DNA of 36,367 bases from a virus: positions 1 through 36,367 of IMG/VR virus record IMGVR_UViG_3300042564_001565, one strand, 5' to 3'. This document shows positions 4,565-19,591 of the stretch, in pieces; within the stretch, counting starts at the first letter, position 1, and each line of letters opens with the position of its first letter. A program made the position numbers and the translations under genes. The notes beneath the pieces were generated by a model. That model was not told the origin of the DNA, did no database searches, and saw only the letters and a list, made by a program, of their open reading frames with translations.

Positions 4565-5956
4565 TCATCGGCCAAATCCATGGGGCTCCGGCTCGGGCGC
4601 GGGCCTGCCACTTTCGAACCTCGCAAGCTCTTTGATAAAGGTCAACGGAATCCTCCCCGTCGGCCCGTTGCGGTTCTTGGCTAGGTCAAGACAAGCCTCC
4701 CCGGTATCTTCCTCGCCTTGGTAGTCTGCCCTCCAGAGCAACGCAATCTGATCCGCGTCCTGCTCAATAGACCCAGATTCCCGAAGGTCGGACATGACGG
4801 GCAGCGCGGTTTTACCGTCGCCCTTCCCGCGCTTTTCGACGCTCCGGTTAAGCTGTGCGAGGACAACCACCGGAATCCCCAAATCCTTTGCTAGTGCCTT
4901 TAGACCCGCTGAAATCTCCGCGATTTCCCGTTCCCGTGAGTTAACCGACTGCTTTGATTCGCCCTTGCATAGTTGCAGGTAGTCGATCCCGATGAGCCTG
5001 ATCCCATGCTCTCGGACCATCCTGCGTGCCTTGGCGCGGATGTAGCCGATGGTGGGGCCGCTCTTGTCGTCGATGAAAAGCGGCGCGGCGGCGATTTCCG
5101 TAGAGGCGCGGTGGATCCGTTGCAAGTCGCCTTTGTTTGGCGCATAGCCCCGTAGAAGCTGGGAGCGTGAGAATCGGGCACGACTGTAAATCATGCGGTC
5201 CACAATCGAATCAGTGGACATTTCCGCTGAAAAGACAAGGCACGGAATCCCACCATCTACGCAGGCGTGCTCAACGATGTTCATGAGGCATGCCGTCTTC
5301 CCCATCGAGGGTCTCGCCCCAATGACGATCATTTCAGACTCTTTTAACCCTCCCATGCGGTCCCACTCCTCGAAGCCCGTGGATAGCCCCTTGGCGCTTG
5401 GCTTGTGGTTCAATTCGTCTTCCAGCCGTTCGATGGCCACAGCAACCGCCTGCTTGACGGTTCGCCCCACCGTATTGACATCATCCCGGATGGCCATTAC
5501 CTCGCTCTCTAGCCGTTCCAGCGTCGTCTGGATGTTGTCCGGCGAGTCATACACGGCGGCGATTGCTCCGTTGCTTACGGACAGGATAGCGCGGGCCTTT
5601 TGCTTCTCGCGCAGAATCTCCACTTGTCTCTTAAAATGGGCGTTGCTTGGCGAGTAGGTGTGAAGGTCAGCAAGCGCGGCAGGCCCGCCGATGCGGTCAA
5701 GCAGGCCCTTGTCAAGCAGTCGCTGGGTAAGCGAAACAAGCTCAATCTCCTGGCCCGCCTCGGACAACTCCAGCAGGAACCCAAACAGCCTCGCATGCGC
5801 TGGCAGGTAGAAGTGGTCGGAGGTAACGCCCATTTCCACGGCAAGCGGGATGAACTCCACCGGATCGTTTAGGAGCGTGGAGAGCGTGGATTTTTCGCAC
5901 GGGAGGCTGAATGGCAGCGGGCGCGTTACGTCCCATTCGTCGGTTTTGAAGCTCAT
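4565..5956 (-). CDS. dnaB: Replicative DNA helicase, DnaB-like
   Basis: The 463-aa protein is a full-length DnaB-family helicase that unwinds DNA at the phage fork. The N-terminal domain spans about residues 18-110 (EKSTLSTLL..., 'HARLFGFLLELSEAG'). The RecA-like domain has Walker A GARPSMGKT (213-221), 'LVFSAEMS' (240-247), Walker B LIGIDYLQL (321-329), 'VVVLAQLNR' and 'SGSIEQDADQIALLWR'. It overlaps the upstream resolvase gene by 4 nt. Its likely loader is the DnaC-like ATPase at 18941 and its likely recruiter the initiator at 16231 (inference from family roles). Confidence 0.95.
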   Translation of the reverse strand: MSFKTDEWDVTRPLPFSLPCEKSTLSTLLNDPVEFIPLAVEMGVTSDHFYLPAHARLFGFLLELSEAGQEIELVSLTQRLLDKGLLDRIGGPAALADLHTYSPSNAHFKRQVEILREKQKARAILSVSNGAIAAVYDSPDNIQTTLERLESEVMAIRDDVNTVGRTVKQAVAVAIERLEDELNHKPSAKGLSTGFEEWDRMGGLKESEMIVIGARPSMGKTACLMNIVEHACVDGGIPCLVFSAEMSTDSIVDRMIYSRARFSRSQLLRGYAPNKGDLQRIHRASTEIAAAPLFIDDKSGPTIGYIRAKARRMVREHGIRLIGIDYLQLCKGESKQSVNSREREIAEISAGLKALAKDLGIPVVVLAQLNRSVEKRGKGDGKTALPVMSDLRESGSIEQDADQIALLWRADYQGEEDTGEACLDLAKNRNGPTGRIPLTFIKELARFESGRPAPEPEPHGFGR

Positions 5957-13398: not shown

Positions 13399-14070
13399 TT
13401 ATGGTTGTTCGATTTTTGATTGTTGGATGAGAAGCGGAAATTCGGTCTGCATCGTTTCACGCTCGATGCGTTTGCAGGCGGCGGCGTAATAGTCAGGATC
13501 AATCTCCGTTGCGGTCAGGTGGTATCCGGCGTAGTGGCAGGCTATGGCAATGCTGCCCGAGCCTAAATGCGAATCAAAAATGCGGTCTCCGGGTTTGGCG
13601 TAGTTGGCCAGCAGCCAGTCGTAGAGTTTCACGGGCTTTTGCGTCGGGTGGATTCGGCCATCTTGGAGCGGGTGGCACTGGAACTTTTTCGCGGTGCTAT
13701 CGAAGGATGTCCACGCCAGTTCCGCCGCCGCGAAGCTCACTTCGTTCGAGAACATCTTATCCCATACGATCCAACAGGCGGAGTTGATGGGCAGGCGTTC
13801 GATAAAGTGATTCGCGCCCCACACGATTTGATGCTTCGACACGCGGCGGAGTTCCGCGAAGTATTCCACGGGCGGGGCCTCGTGATCCCAATCGCCCATC
13901 TTGTAGGTTGCGCGGGCATCGCCTTTCCTGCGCCCCATCCCTTGCTTGTTATCTCCCACGTGGATTCCATACGGCGGGTCAACAATCGCCAAATCGTAAA
14001 ACCCATCCGGCGTCTCCCGCATGAGATCCATGCAGTCGCCAAGTCGGAGGTCTAGGAGGTCGGTTTTCAT
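13399..14070 (-). CDS. Second DNA methyltransferase, beta-class
   Basis: From the ATG at 14070 (GACCAATG context) the protein has 223 aa. Motifs: 'LRLGDCMDLM', catalytic DPPYG (31-35), 'WGANHFIERLP', HPTQKP (141-146) and FDSHLGSGSIAIA (165-177). It differs clearly from the methyltransferase at 11031, so it is not a recent duplicate and probably has another target. A frame to 14109 adds 13 residues but would run through the structured leader. It is an orphan, with no restriction partner seen. Confidence 0.92.
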   Translation of the reverse strand: MKTDLLDLRLGDCMDLMRETPDGFYDLAIVDPPYGIHVGDNKQGMGRRKGDARATYKMGDWDHEAPPVEYFAELRRVSKHQIVWGANHFIERLPINSACWIVWDKMFSNEVSFAAAELAWTSFDSTAKKFQCHPLQDGRIHPTQKPVKLYDWLLANYAKPGDRIFDSHLGSGSIAIACHYAGYHLTATEIDPDYYAAACKRIERETMQTEFPLLIQQSKIEQP

Positions 14071-14085
14071 TGGTCTAAAAAGTTT

Positions 14086-14157
14086 CCCTCCCGCTGCTTT
14101 CCCGCGCAATCCCGGCTAAAGGTCTGACGGTTCGGCCGGCAACGTGCCACGGGAGGG
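14086..14157 (-). promoter_or_regulatory. Structured leader before the methyltransferase gene
   Basis: In this gap an 8-bp stem (CCCTCCCG/CGGGAGGG, 14086-14093 with 14150-14157) encloses 56 nt. These contain a 5-bp inner stem (CCGGC/GCCGG, 14112-14116 with 14135-14139) and an alternative small hairpin (GGCA/TGCC). On the minus strand it is followed by AAACTTTTT and then the start codon. It could be a terminator/attenuator or a cis-regulatory RNA. It matches no riboswitch consensus I could recall. Confidence 0.5.
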
Positions 14158-15688: not shown

Positions 15689-16195
15689 ATGAGAACTTAC
15701 TCCCAAAAACTACTCGATCCCCGCTGGCAACGCAAACGGCTTGAAATCATGGAGCGTGATGGCTGGAAATGCCGTCATTGCTTGAATGACAAGAAAACTC
15801 TTCACGTTCACCATCGTGAATACATAAAGAACAGGGAACCATGGGATTATCCAGATGAGAATTTCAAAACGCTGTGTGAGTCCTGCCACGAATTTGAGCA
15901 TGGAGAAAAACGTGATGATGAAGTAATGAAAATTCTTTCAGACGCAATAAGATCGGACGCTTCCACACAAAAATTTGTGGTCCAGCTTGCATGGTTAGCG
16001 GTGATGTATAAGCTTTTGATGTATCATCATAATAATTGGGAAACCCCCAAGGGCGAGGAATGTTTTAAGAAATACCTAAGTTTGATGGAGAAATCAAAGC
16101 GTGCCAGAGAAATAGTTCGGTTGTTTTTGGATAATACTGAAGCAATCGCCAAACTTGAAATTGATCCATCGGACGATCAGGAAGTCGAAATATGA
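15689..16195 (+). CDS. HNH endonuclease
   Basis: The 168-aa protein has a compact HNH domain with structural zinc: 'SQKLLDPRWQRKRLEIMERDGWKCRHC' (Cys28, Cys31), 'TLHVHHREYIKNREPWDYPDENF' (His41-His42) and 'TLCESCHEFEH' (Cys63, Cys66). The C-terminal 90 residues are helical and not recognised. Such proteins nick or cut DNA and are often mobile or act in packaging. It lies between a structured leader and the replication initiator, far from the terminase, so a homing or regulatory role is more likely than packaging (inference). The base composition is more AT-rich than its neighbours. Confidence 0.9.
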   Translation: MRTYSQKLLDPRWQRKRLEIMERDGWKCRHCLNDKKTLHVHHREYIKNREPWDYPDENFKTLCESCHEFEHGEKRDDEVMKILSDAIRSDASTQKFVVQLAWLAVMYKLLMYHHNNWETPKGEECFKKYLSLMEKSKRAREIVRLFLDNTEAIAKLEIDPSDDQEVEI

Positions 16196-16224
16196 TTGAC
16201 TGTAACGCCTTGTAACGCTACTGT
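16196..16224 (+). promoter_or_regulatory. Promoter of the initiator gene, embedded in iterons
   Basis: TTGACT (16196-16201), 17-nt spacer, TACTGT (16219-16224), then 6 nt to the ATG at 16231, so the mRNA could be leaderless. Two GTAACGC iterons fill the spacer and a third overlaps the -10. Binding of the initiator there would block the promoter, a classical autoregulation layout (inference). Confidence 0.65.
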
Positions 16225-16229
16225 AACGC
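16202..16229 (+). repeat. Iteron array 1 (three GTAACGC copies)
   Basis: GTAACGC occurs at 16202-16208, 16212-16218 and 16223-16229, each preceded by T. The spacing is 10 and 11 bp, one helical turn, so all copies face the same side of the DNA. It lies directly upstream of the initiator-like gene. Confidence 0.8.
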
Positions 16230-16230
16230 C

Positions 16231-17064
16231 ATGTTCGTAAAGCTATTCACTCAGATACTCGACTCATCCATCGCCGATGATCGCCGCTTGCGCCATTTCT
16301 TCACCGATCTACTGCTTTGCGCGGACCCTAAAGGCTACGTAATGATGACGGAATCAGCCATCGCCCGCCGCATCGGAACCACGCTTGAGGAGGTTGAATG
16401 GGGTATTGCGGAACTGGAAAAGCCCGACCCTCGCAGTAAAACACCTGACATGGAAGGCAGGCGGATTGAGCGTCTGGAGGGCACTGGATATGGATGGCGA
16501 ATCATCAATTTTGAGGCTTACAAGTTTCTGAAAAGTGCCGACGAAATGCGCGAAAAAACCAAGGAGCGAGTTCGTAAGCATCGGGAAAACAAAGCCTTAC
16601 AAAGCAGTAACGCCGATGTAACACCTTGTAACGCTGGTAACACCACGAAGAGGAAGAGGCAGACGCAAAGGAAGAAGCAGAATGAAGAGGAAGAGAATAC
16701 CCCTAGCGGGGAGGAGGATGAAATCTTCGAAAGCTGGAACGTGATGGCTTCACAAACCGGACTCCCAAAAATCGCCAAATCCTCAACCGAACGCCGCGCC
16801 AAAGCCAAGACCCGACTCCGCGATCAATTCTTCCGCGACAACTGGAGGGAAGGAATCGAAGCCATCAAGGAACGCGGATTCCTACGCGGCCAGAATGACC
16901 GGGGATGGGAGGCGACAATCGACTGGTTCTTGAAGCCCGAAAGCCTCATCCGTATCGTCGAGGGGCAATACAAGGACAAGGTGCCGACACAGCAGGAACT
17001 AGCCCCCCGCTGCTTCCCCGGCGAGATGATCCCCGAAAAGAAACCACTCCCGCCCGTTTTCTGA
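16231..17064 (+). CDS. Replication initiator-like protein (O/DnaD-type)
   Basis: The 277-aa protein has a winged-helix-like N-terminal domain (about 1-110: 'LRHFFTDLLLCADPKGYVMMTESAIARRIGTTLEEVEWGIAELEKPD' and 'GYGWRIINFEAYKFL'), a charged linker (about 111-170, rich in Lys, Arg, Glu) and a C-terminal domain with 'FRDNWREGIEAIKERGFLRGQNDRGWEATIDWFLKPESLIRIVEGQY'. This order is typical of phage initiators that bind the origin and recruit the helicase loader. Four iterons lie inside its linker-coding region, as lambda's origin lies inside gene O. The start at 16231 fits the promoter 6 nt upstream. Confidence 0.83.
   Translation: MFVKLFTQILDSSIADDRRLRHFFTDLLLCADPKGYVMMTESAIARRIGTTLEEVEWGIAELEKPDPRSKTPDMEGRRIERLEGTGYGWRIINFEAYKFLKSADEMREKTKERVRKHRENKALQSSNADVTPCNAGNTTKRKRQTQRKKQNEEEENTPSGEEDEIFESWNVMASQTGLPKIAKSSTERRAKAKTRLRDQFFRDNWREGIEAIKERGFLRGQNDRGWEATIDWFLKPESLIRIVEGQYKDKVPTQQELAPRCFPGEMIPEKKPLPPVF
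16607..16643 (+). repeat. Iteron array 2 inside the initiator gene; candidate replication origin
   Basis: GTAACGC/GTAACAC occur at 16607-16613, 16618-16624, 16628-16634 and 16637-16643 (spacing 11, 10, 9 bp). The words match array 1, 380 bp upstream. They encode a low-complexity Ser/Asn/Thr linker (SNADVTPCNAGNTTK), so the DNA rather than the protein may be under selection. A purine-rich AAGAGGAAG stretch follows at once and could be the melting region (inference). Confidence 0.78.
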
Positions 17065-17234: not shown

Positions 17235-17426
17235 ATGAAAGATGAAATTAAACGATACCTGTCAGAAATCGGGAAACGAGGAGGTTGCTCAAAATCCCAA
17301 AAGAAAACAGAGGCGGCGAGGAGAAATGCCAAAAGACCTCGCCGAAAGAAAGCGCATGCTTGCCAGATTGAGGTATTACAAAAACAGGGAAAAGAACCTA
17401 AAAGCGGTCAAGGATTACAGGGATAG
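17235..17426 (+). CDS. Small RGG/KR-rich phage protein, 3' end altered by the HNH gene
   Basis: From the ATG at 17235 the frame encodes 63 aa. The first 40 (MKDEIKRYLSEIGKRGG..., SKSQKKTEAARRNAK) match the pattern of small phage/bacterial 'E-I-G-x-R-G-G-x...K-T-x-A-A-R-x-N' proteins, which normally end soon after. The last ~20 residues come from the DNA that also encodes the HNH protein in another frame (overlap 101 nt). The natural C-terminus was therefore probably replaced when the HNH gene arrived. The function of the family is unknown. Confidence 0.65.
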   Translation: MKDEIKRYLSEIGKRGGCSKSQKKTEAARRNAKRPRRKKAHACQIEVLQKQGKEPKSGQGLQG

Positions 17427-17940
17427 AAACAAGGAAAAAGTAGCACTCGCAAAAAAACTTGACGCGGAAAGAAACAAGGATCGCGTCAAAAACACAAGAA
17501 TCAGGCATTACCTAAAAAACAAGGAATCAATCGACAAGAGGGTAAAAAACTGGAAGAAAAACAATAGAGCTAGGCTCAACGAAAGGAATAGGCAGCGATA
17601 TAAAACCGATGTAGCATACAGAATAACTGTAAATTATAGAAATAGGTTTTATGATGTCGTCAAAAACAAGAGAACTAGCAAATCAATAAAATTCCTAGGT
17701 TGCTCCATAGATCATTTCAAGGAATACCTAGAATCACTCTTTACAAAAAAAATGACATGGGAAAACCACGGAACTTATTGGCACATTGACCACATCATGC
17801 CATGCGCTTCATTTGATTTGACTGATGAGGCACACCAAAAACGATGCTTTCACTACACCAACATGCAGCCATTAGAGGCTAAGAAAAATTTAACCAAAAA
17901 CAAAACACAACCCCAAAGCCATCAATTTTTACTTTTATGA
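17326..17940 (+). CDS. HNH homing endonuclease, AT-rich insertion
   Basis: From the ATG at 17326 the product is 204 aa (an ATG at 17242 would add 28 residues, overlapping the RGG gene almost fully). The N-terminal half is a long Lys/Arg/Asn-rich helix region (KNREKNLKAVKDYRDRNKEK...). The C-terminal part has the HNH signature 'YWHIDHIMPCASFDL' and 'HYTNMQPLEAKKNLTKNK'. The DNA is visibly A-rich and unlike its neighbours, a sign of recent transfer. Its stop overlaps the start of the SSB-like gene (ATGA), so it has become part of the operon. Confidence 0.9.
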   Translation: MPKDLAERKRMLARLRYYKNREKNLKAVKDYRDRNKEKVALAKKLDAERNKDRVKNTRIRHYLKNKESIDKRVKNWKKNNRARLNERNRQRYKTDVAYRITVNYRNRFYDVVKNKRTSKSIKFLGCSIDHFKEYLESLFTKKMTWENHGTYWHIDHIMPCASFDLTDEAHQKRCFHYTNMQPLEAKKNLTKNKTQPQSHQFLLL

Positions 17941-18674: not shown

Positions 18675-18944
18675 ATGAACCTACTCCCACCAAACCCGAC
18701 GCCGTTTGACTACTTCCACGCGATCCGCGCCTTAGCCTCCCGCGAAGGCAACAAGGCGATTTTCGACCTAGCGGACGCGGCGATGAATCTGCCCGAGCCG
18801 AAGGGACAGACGCCGGAAACGGATGCGGCGTGGAAATGGGCGAACAAGTGCGACGAATGGGATGAGGTTGTGTCAGCCAAATTCGCCCGTAACCTCGAAC
18901 GCCAGCGAGACGAAGCCCGCGCAACCCTCAACCCAAAGCCATGA
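18675..18944 (+). CDS. Conserved phage hypothetical protein (TPETDAAW type)
   Basis: The 89-aa protein contains 'TPETDAAWKWANKCDEWDEVVSAKFARNLERQRDEARATL', a phrase frequent in small phage proteins: a TPETD start followed by a coiled coil ending in ERxRDEA. The N-terminal 'PPNPTPFDYFHAIRAL' is less typical. Function unknown. It is coupled to the helicase-loader-like gene by ATGA. Confidence 0.78.
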   Translation: MNLLPPNPTPFDYFHAIRALASREGNKAIFDLADAAMNLPEPKGQTPETDAAWKWANKCDEWDEVVSAKFARNLERQRDEARATLNPKP

Positions 18945-19591
18945 CAACGCCCTACCACCCGCCAACCCCATGGCCAGCGGTAAACCTGCCGACGCATTAC
19001 GACGGCATGCCCTTTCCCACTGGCCCCGCCGCATGGCTGGAAAAGGGCTCAAAGGCGCTCCGCATCGTCGAGGCTGGCGGGATCGTCCTGCTGAATGGCG
19101 CTTACGGAACCGGGAAAACATGGATGGCGACGCTTATCGCCCGACAGGTCACACCATCGCTCAAACAGCCGTATTTCCCAGCGCATCCGCCATTGCCAGA
19201 CCATCGCCGGCCGATCGTCTACTGGCATGCGAAAGAGCTTATGGACCGAATCAAGGCCAACTACGGCACCGGGGGCAACGTCGCTTTGATTGACGACATG
19301 GCAGAGGCGTCGGTGCTAATCCTAGACGAGCTTTCCAAGGCGGTAAAATCGCCGCATGACGGGGAGGCGCTGGCGACGATCATTGACCGCCGTTACCGGG
19401 ATAATCGGCCCGTCATCCTTTGCGCCAATTTTGACATTGATCGGCTGGATCACTTTCTGGACGGTTCGACAATCGACCGGATCCGCGAAGTCGGGGGGAT
19501 TATGTCCTTTGACTGGCCGGGTTTTCGGGGGAGGAACGCCGATGTGATGGCACGCGGCGACAACGCCACTCCGACAACTCCCAAACCTTAA
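18941..19591 (+). CDS. DnaC-like helicase-loader ATPase
   Basis: The 216-aa protein is a AAA+ ATPase with Walker A GAYGTGKT (53-60), Walker B VLILDE (125-130), a sensor-like 'PVILCANFD' and an arginine-containing 'STIDRIREVGGIMSFDW'. This matches phage DnaC/IstB-type loaders that place the replicative helicase on the origin. It follows the initiator and SSB-like genes, and the phage has its own DnaB, so it probably loads that helicase. It lacks the N-terminal helicase-binding domain of E. coli DnaC. The start overlaps the preceding stop by 4 nt. Confidence 0.85.
   Translation: MTTPYHPPTPWPAVNLPTHYDGMPFPTGPAAWLEKGSKALRIVEAGGIVLLNGAYGTGKTWMATLIARQVTPSLKQPYFPAHPPLPDHRRPIVYWHAKELMDRIKANYGTGGNVALIDDMAEASVLILDELSKAVKSPHDGEALATIIDRRYRDNRPVILCANFDIDRLDHFLDGSTIDRIREVGGIMSFDWPGFRGRNADVMARGDNATPTTPKP

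Follow-up and report, generated by a model that had tools for sequence, protein, structure and literature searches.

In phage lambda, the iterons of ori-lambda lie in the middle of the O gene (nt 349-433) and are followed by an unwinding tract and then by the helicase-loading genes. The tract is AT-rich, and O proteins are described as binding single strands there (PMC7466680). The ori-lambda variants of Stx phages, treated in that source, are grouped here with lambda as the closest known system. Phage SPP1 is described as having direct repeats within the gene of its initiator gp38 (oriL), an unwinding element, and loader and helicase genes (PMC6316719). In addition, several members of the family phage_rep_org_N (PF09681 / TIGR01714) carry GTNAC iterons, an AGA tract and a hexad in a basic helix.

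The window analyzed here is a viral record of 36,367 bases (IMGVR_UViG_3300042564_001565), a tailed-phage genome with terminase and portal genes. Its gene at 16231-17064 (+ strand) very probably encodes an O-like initiator with GTAACRC as its iterons, the iteron array inside the gene and the AGA-rich tract 3' of it forming the origin. As in lambda, the iterons occupy the middle of the gene (nt 377-413), and the order is the same: iterons, proposed unwinding tract, helicase loading. The preliminary description had placed the internal array where lambda keeps its origin, and the mapped lambda iterons indeed fall at the same place in O. In contrast to the 18-bp iterons of lambda, the word in the window is only 7 bp long and is phased at 9-11 bp. 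The window also has an array at the start codon, whereas none is annotated in lambda. While the lambda tract is AT-rich, that of the relatives repeats every 6 nt and has a G+C content of about half, and the window itself has a mixed-G+C AGA-rich tract beside the iterons rather than an AT-rich region. A relation between a helix of the initiator and the iteron word further sets the window system apart from the lambda origin. The N-terminal profile of phage_rep_org_N is not matched by the window protein; what the two have in common is the arrangement of helix, iterons and tract, not the N-terminal family.

The initiator gene encodes a protein of 277 aa, classed as O-like/DnaD-like from PHROG matches. 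It matched phrog_345 (E 4.6e-20 over aa 2-250) and phrog_10469 (E 1.9e-22), placing it over most of its length among the O-like phage initiators; the presence of putative iterons within the gene is a second feature of this group. Pfam and NCBIfam profile searches with the protein returned no family and a PDB sequence search returned no match. The AlphaFold2 model, built with 71 sequences, comprises a winged helix (~aa 7-91), a basic helix (94-124), a linker (125-184) and a C-terminal part (185-245). The N-terminal domain is confidently predicted (pLDDT mostly 94-98), as is the long helix 94-124. The linker is disordered, and its codons contain both the internal iterons and the tract; the C-terminal part is weakly modelled. 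Best structural matches of the N-terminal model were CRP-type winged helices (Z 7.6, 63 residues, rmsd 2.1); two plasmid Rep initiators, 5kbj and 4pt7, scored Z 6.7-6.8. Note that these Z values may reflect only a widely shared arrangement. A Foldseek search with the model gave nothing at E <= 0.001.

Directly 5' of the initiator gene lies an HNH-endonuclease-like gene (15689-16195, + strand; Pfam/PHROG matches). Downstream follows a gene for a DnaC-like helicase loader of the AAA+ type (18941-19591, + strand; Pfam IstB_IS21/AAA, phrog_50, phrog_3277), likely the partner of the initiator. A DnaB-like helicase gene, recognized by PHROG matches, is on the opposite strand from the initiator gene. 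The region also contains a 232-aa ORF (17242-17940) without Pfam match, whose C-terminal end resembles an HNH-type endonuclease by impression from the sequence, and, on the minus strand, a gene for a DNA methyltransferase (13399-14109), close to the switch of gene direction.

Seven copies of GTAACRC had been reported at this locus, and an exact word search located all of them, on the + strand: GTAACGC at 16202, 16212, 16223, 16607 and 16628, and GTAACAC at 16618 and 16637. The start-proximal array (16202-16229; three GTAACGC spaced by 10 and 11 bp) fills the gap between the stop codon of the upstream gene and the ATG. The internal array (16607-16643, + strand), in the linker codons, consists of GTAACGC, GTAACAC, GTAACGC and GTAACAC spaced by 11, 10 and 9 bp. 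These positions bear out the distance of ~380 bp between the two clusters. In the whole window the word occurs 13 times, compared to 3.75 copies expected, a number reached by 0/100 shuffles. Few copies had been anticipated outside the arrays; the six further copies in the record were all single, and all five phased pairs fall within the two arrays, while the reversed word forms no phased pair in the record. When the gene was resampled with synonymous codons, keeping the 277-aa protein fixed, four or more copies arose in 0/20,000 trials. A chance origin of the arrays is thus rejected on the shuffles, the phased-pair counts and the synonymous resampling. The DnaB-like helicase gene holds two GTAACGC that point in opposite directions and are separated by 100 bp (5823-5929), probably by chance. 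A GC-skew analysis for the origin, proposed in the preliminary description, produced no clear signal and was uninformative.

A promoter had been placed under the first array. The two hexamers are present, TTGACT (16196-16201) and TACTGT (16219-16224), and the 17-bp spacer between them consists of two iterons; however, the match of this promoter-like site (16196-16224, + strand) is weak and below the scan threshold. If used, it would yield a nearly leaderless mRNA.

At least 119 viral stretches contain three phased GTAACGC, so that the word is not peculiar to the phage of the window. From 120 strand matches among the stretches listed, 75 non-redundant cases with a usable ORF were obtained (30 had no ORF, 3 lay at an edge and 12 were near-duplicates). 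Scanning of 90 proteins (89 array ORFs and the window protein) revealed many initiator PHROGs among the matches listed, led by phrog_9474 (22), phrog_9327 (19) and phrog_270 (16). Some matches to phased GTAACGC were plainly unrelated repeat proteins. Relatives were also collected by N-terminal protein patterns, with the repeat not in the query. This yielded 282 loci, of which the best 80 contained 65 distinct relatives, and a further 19 loci from named genomes. Genome labels of the prophage relatives included Proteobacteria, Verrucomicrobia, Acidobacteria, Phycisphaerales and others, many of them MAGs.

Among the 65 distinct relatives (best 80 of 282 loci), array sites were at nt 358-460 within the gene and at -5 to -43 upstream. 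At least one internal GTAACRC was present in 43/65, and an upstream copy within 200 bp in 25/65. The remaining 22/65 genes had no internal GTAACRC; such relatives often had a different word instead (GTCAC, GTGAC, GTCCC, GTCAAC, GTAGA, GTGGAC or GTAAGC), and 4/85 classified genes lacked every word on the list. In 34/82 relatives the best phased internal 6-mer was found again within 70 bp 5' of the start codon, whereas 1,000 permutations of the array pairs gave 14.3 such cases on average and 23 at most. To judge from the sequences, a change of word thus tends to affect the two arrays jointly, the trace expected from one protein reading both. A ribosome-binding site was absent in 39/45 relatives with upstream iterons and in 26/39 without, a weak contrast. 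In two relatives (L206:1950-1994 and L242:1930-1991) the upstream arrays hold the inverted pair GTTACAGTAAC, unlike the direct repeats inside the gene; an inverted pair at an operator suggests a dimer site. Phages Evi, phi1 and pAEv1818 show a different version of the two-array layout, where two GTNAC arrays lie within the initiator gene (L401:889-1959, L402:889-1790 and L403:817-1734, respectively), in Evi and phi1 at about nt 128-192 and 388-429.

Adjoining the last iteron of the internal array is a polar AGA-rich tract (16646-16697, + strand), which we propose as the unwinding element. In the window it is degenerate, with an AGA chain of 4, and non-significant by itself (chains of 4 or longer arose in 228/4,000 trials of synonymous resampling). 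Most relatives have a 6-nt repeat such as GCAGAA 3' of the internal array. A chain of four or more AGA, 5-7 nt apart, occurred in 53/83 relatives at +400 to +500 but in 0/86 at offsets 0-250, and around GTAACGC arrays the AGA chain was found downstream in 38/99 and upstream in 0/99. Other initiator families have tracts with different periods and words. The arrangement resembles the B. subtilis DnaA-trio/DRE, where a strand-specific repeat of short period in the unwinding region likewise adjoins sites bound by the initiator as double strands (PMC10201434). The tract differs from that element in its period of mostly 6 and the absence of the trio word; by inspection, many AGA-tract hexamers also lack the TnnT spacing. 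By this analogy, a DnaA-trio-like recognition of the single strand is putative.

The same words could instead be operator sites for autoregulation only, recognized by the initiator itself or by some other regulator of the phage, with the origin elsewhere. One array does overlie the promoter-like site at the start codon, and some relatives have inverted GTTAC/GTAAC pairs in the start-codon array. Against this, the array within the gene is both the larger and the commoner one (43/65 compared to 25/65 upstream, among the best 80 of 282 loci), and the AGA tract follows it on its 3' side, as the unwinding region follows the iterons in lambda. We consider an operator-only role unlikely. The view of the preliminary description, a likely origin of initiator-binding iterons, is supported at the sequence level by the initiator-family matches, the arrays of the relatives, the covariation of the word and the position shared with lambda. 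Its arrays are borne out; it mentions neither the AGA tract nor a link between word and basic helix.

The reversed word CGCAATG was tried as a neutral control and rejected. Many of the 68 stretches obtained with it turned out to be iterons of other phage initiators, which we take to be DUF1376-like. Since CGCAATG is not neutral, it was unusable as a null, and within-gene offsets, synonymous codons and permutations were used instead. The CGCAATG arrays (loci L126-L193; unit ~AACGCAATGCG, 11-bp spacing) lie within the linker of these initiators, and [AV]x0-2RW precedes them in 22/39 cases, compared to 2/75 for GTAACGC arrays.

We propose, on the basis of sequence and model, that the word is associated with a hexad of the basic helix, RVRKHR in the window (aa 113-118), the codons of which (16567-16584, + strand) end 22 bp 5' of the internal array. 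RVxxHR-like hexads occur with GTAAC and RKRxQR with GTCAC. The genes of loci L199 and L214 have identical N-terminal cores (identity 1.00) and diverge from the basic helix onward, with GTAAC and GTCCC as their words. At a core identity of 0.6-0.7, helix similarity was 0.34 for gene pairs with different words versus 0.49 for pairs with the same word, and at 0.8-0.9 it was 0.48 versus 0.60. Two exact motifs stated beforehand failed: RKQxQR preceded GTCACGC arrays in 2/83 cases and [KR]RKxRYR preceded TGTCCC arrays in 0/65, the latter set being mostly non-initiators. Post hoc, after both failures, the fifth residue (position 5) of hexads fitting R[VQKIAL]xx?R was found to be H/Y/F/W in 37/42 GTAACGC versus 6/41 GTCACGC cases. 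This contrast held in 47/50 hexad-containing loci of a previously unused set (79 loci kept, chosen by GTAACRC and tract).

A further prediction was recorded before a search with the peptide ERKRxQRER, a query without any iteron. From 120 stretches, 50 loci were kept (48 had no open frame, 20 were near-duplicates and 2 were too short). In the downstream 200 nt, at least two GTCAC were present in 33/50 loci, at least two GTGAC in 9/50 and at least two GTAAC in 0/50, though these loci are not independent lineages. The converse search, for ERVxxHREK across 398 genomes, yielded 2 matches, too few to inform. Among 11 named phages compared, those of one N-terminal family with arrays had H/Y at position 5 with GTAAC in 4/4 cases (SM1, IPP62, 71 and StB20) and Q with GTCAC in 5/5 (187, CNPx, OE33PA6, phi6229 and phiRM10). 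Phage phiS11 has the hexad RMQKSR and the word GTTAC, and Bacillus phage 031MP003 has the GTAAC-type hexad RVAKYR and no linker array. In the window's own family, GTCAC genes break the position-5 rule, with an aromatic residue or His in 3/6. Judged from these sequences, the relation between hexad and word is an association, due in part to shared ancestry, rather than a one-residue code.

The association also bears on whether a host protein, rather than the initiator, reads the arrays. Binding of the initiator to them is deduced from sequence, which leaves room for another reader; yet the word tracks the basic helix of the initiator itself and varies between related phages, making a host reader very improbable.

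Selection on the internal array appears to act on the DNA. The internal copies are read in two frames, 87 as V-T and 72 as N-A, with none in the frame containing a stop, and both frames are used in 35/38 genes with at least two internal copies. The copies are therefore kept at the DNA rather than the peptide level. The Val codon was GTA in 87/87 array codons versus 159/1,111 outside the array. In phage phi6229 the initiator ORF stops after the basic helix, and array and tract persist behind the stop codon; they are intergenic in this phage, and a DnaD-like gene then follows (L769:501-1390). In another stretch (L007:2695-2761), seven copies of GTAACGC recur every 10 bp exactly and no 100-aa ORF spans them, a possible non-coding origin judging by its sequence.

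Within the tract, Ala, Thr and Ser are encoded almost exclusively by codons ending in CA. Genes with dipeptide runs (53/65) used GCA for Ala in 218/221 run codons versus 356/1,488 elsewhere in these genes, and ACA for Thr in 65/71 versus 178/903. Note that a few of the runs sit in the iteron array and not in the tract, and such runs weaken the codon effect. The tract is mostly in a constant frame (154/163 loci, with 4 in another frame and 5 without ORF, in a sample selected for the RCAGAN pattern), so that a peptide constraint may add to the DNA constraint. For a DNA-level constraint on the tract, the codon bias is stronger evidence than the frame. Linkers are often repetitive, and the RCAGAN tract keeps one frame in most loci of the selected sample, but that the internal repeats are no more than a peptide linker of low complexity (N-A / V-T followed by dipeptides) is hardly credible given the use of both frames within single arrays, the GTA and CA-ending codons, the identical words in non-coding upstream DNA and the phi6229 array behind its stop codon.

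For the O-like initiator and its intragenic origin, the following course of events is the most likely. The initiator would bind the iterons through the winged helix together with the basic helix next to it, which carries the hexad RVRKHR. Several bound copies would open the AGA-tract side of the internal array, and the DnaC-like loader would bring the helicase to the opened tract. On the start-proximal array, bound initiator would cover the promoter-like site and the ribosome-binding region, limiting its own synthesis. Looping between the two arrays, suggested earlier, is possible.

Hexad codons, iterons and tract lie within ~130 bp and could thus be exchanged together. We tentatively propose, at somewhat less than an even chance, that initiators of several scaffolds share an exchangeable cassette, consisting of a hexad that sets the word, iterons in the codons that follow, and a DnaA-trio-like AGA tract as a landing strip on the single strand. 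RVxxHR would then set GTAAC, RKRxQR would set GTCAC, and other hexads would set further words, an assignment we hold just as tentatively. No description of the GTAACRC word, the AGA tract or the helix-word relation was recognized in the open-access literature searched.

To our knowledge, most phage origins are unmapped. If the relation of helix, word and tract holds, the sequences of many uncultured phages and prophages would suffice to predict their origins and the specificity of these. How an initiator changes its specificity when the origin lies inside its own gene would become a question directly testable with harmless phages and plasmids of the laboratory. The AGA tract would give the search for sequence-specific unwinding elements a phage case. 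Should the cassette exist as proposed, origin specificity would be predictable from the protein and could be changed by one recombination.
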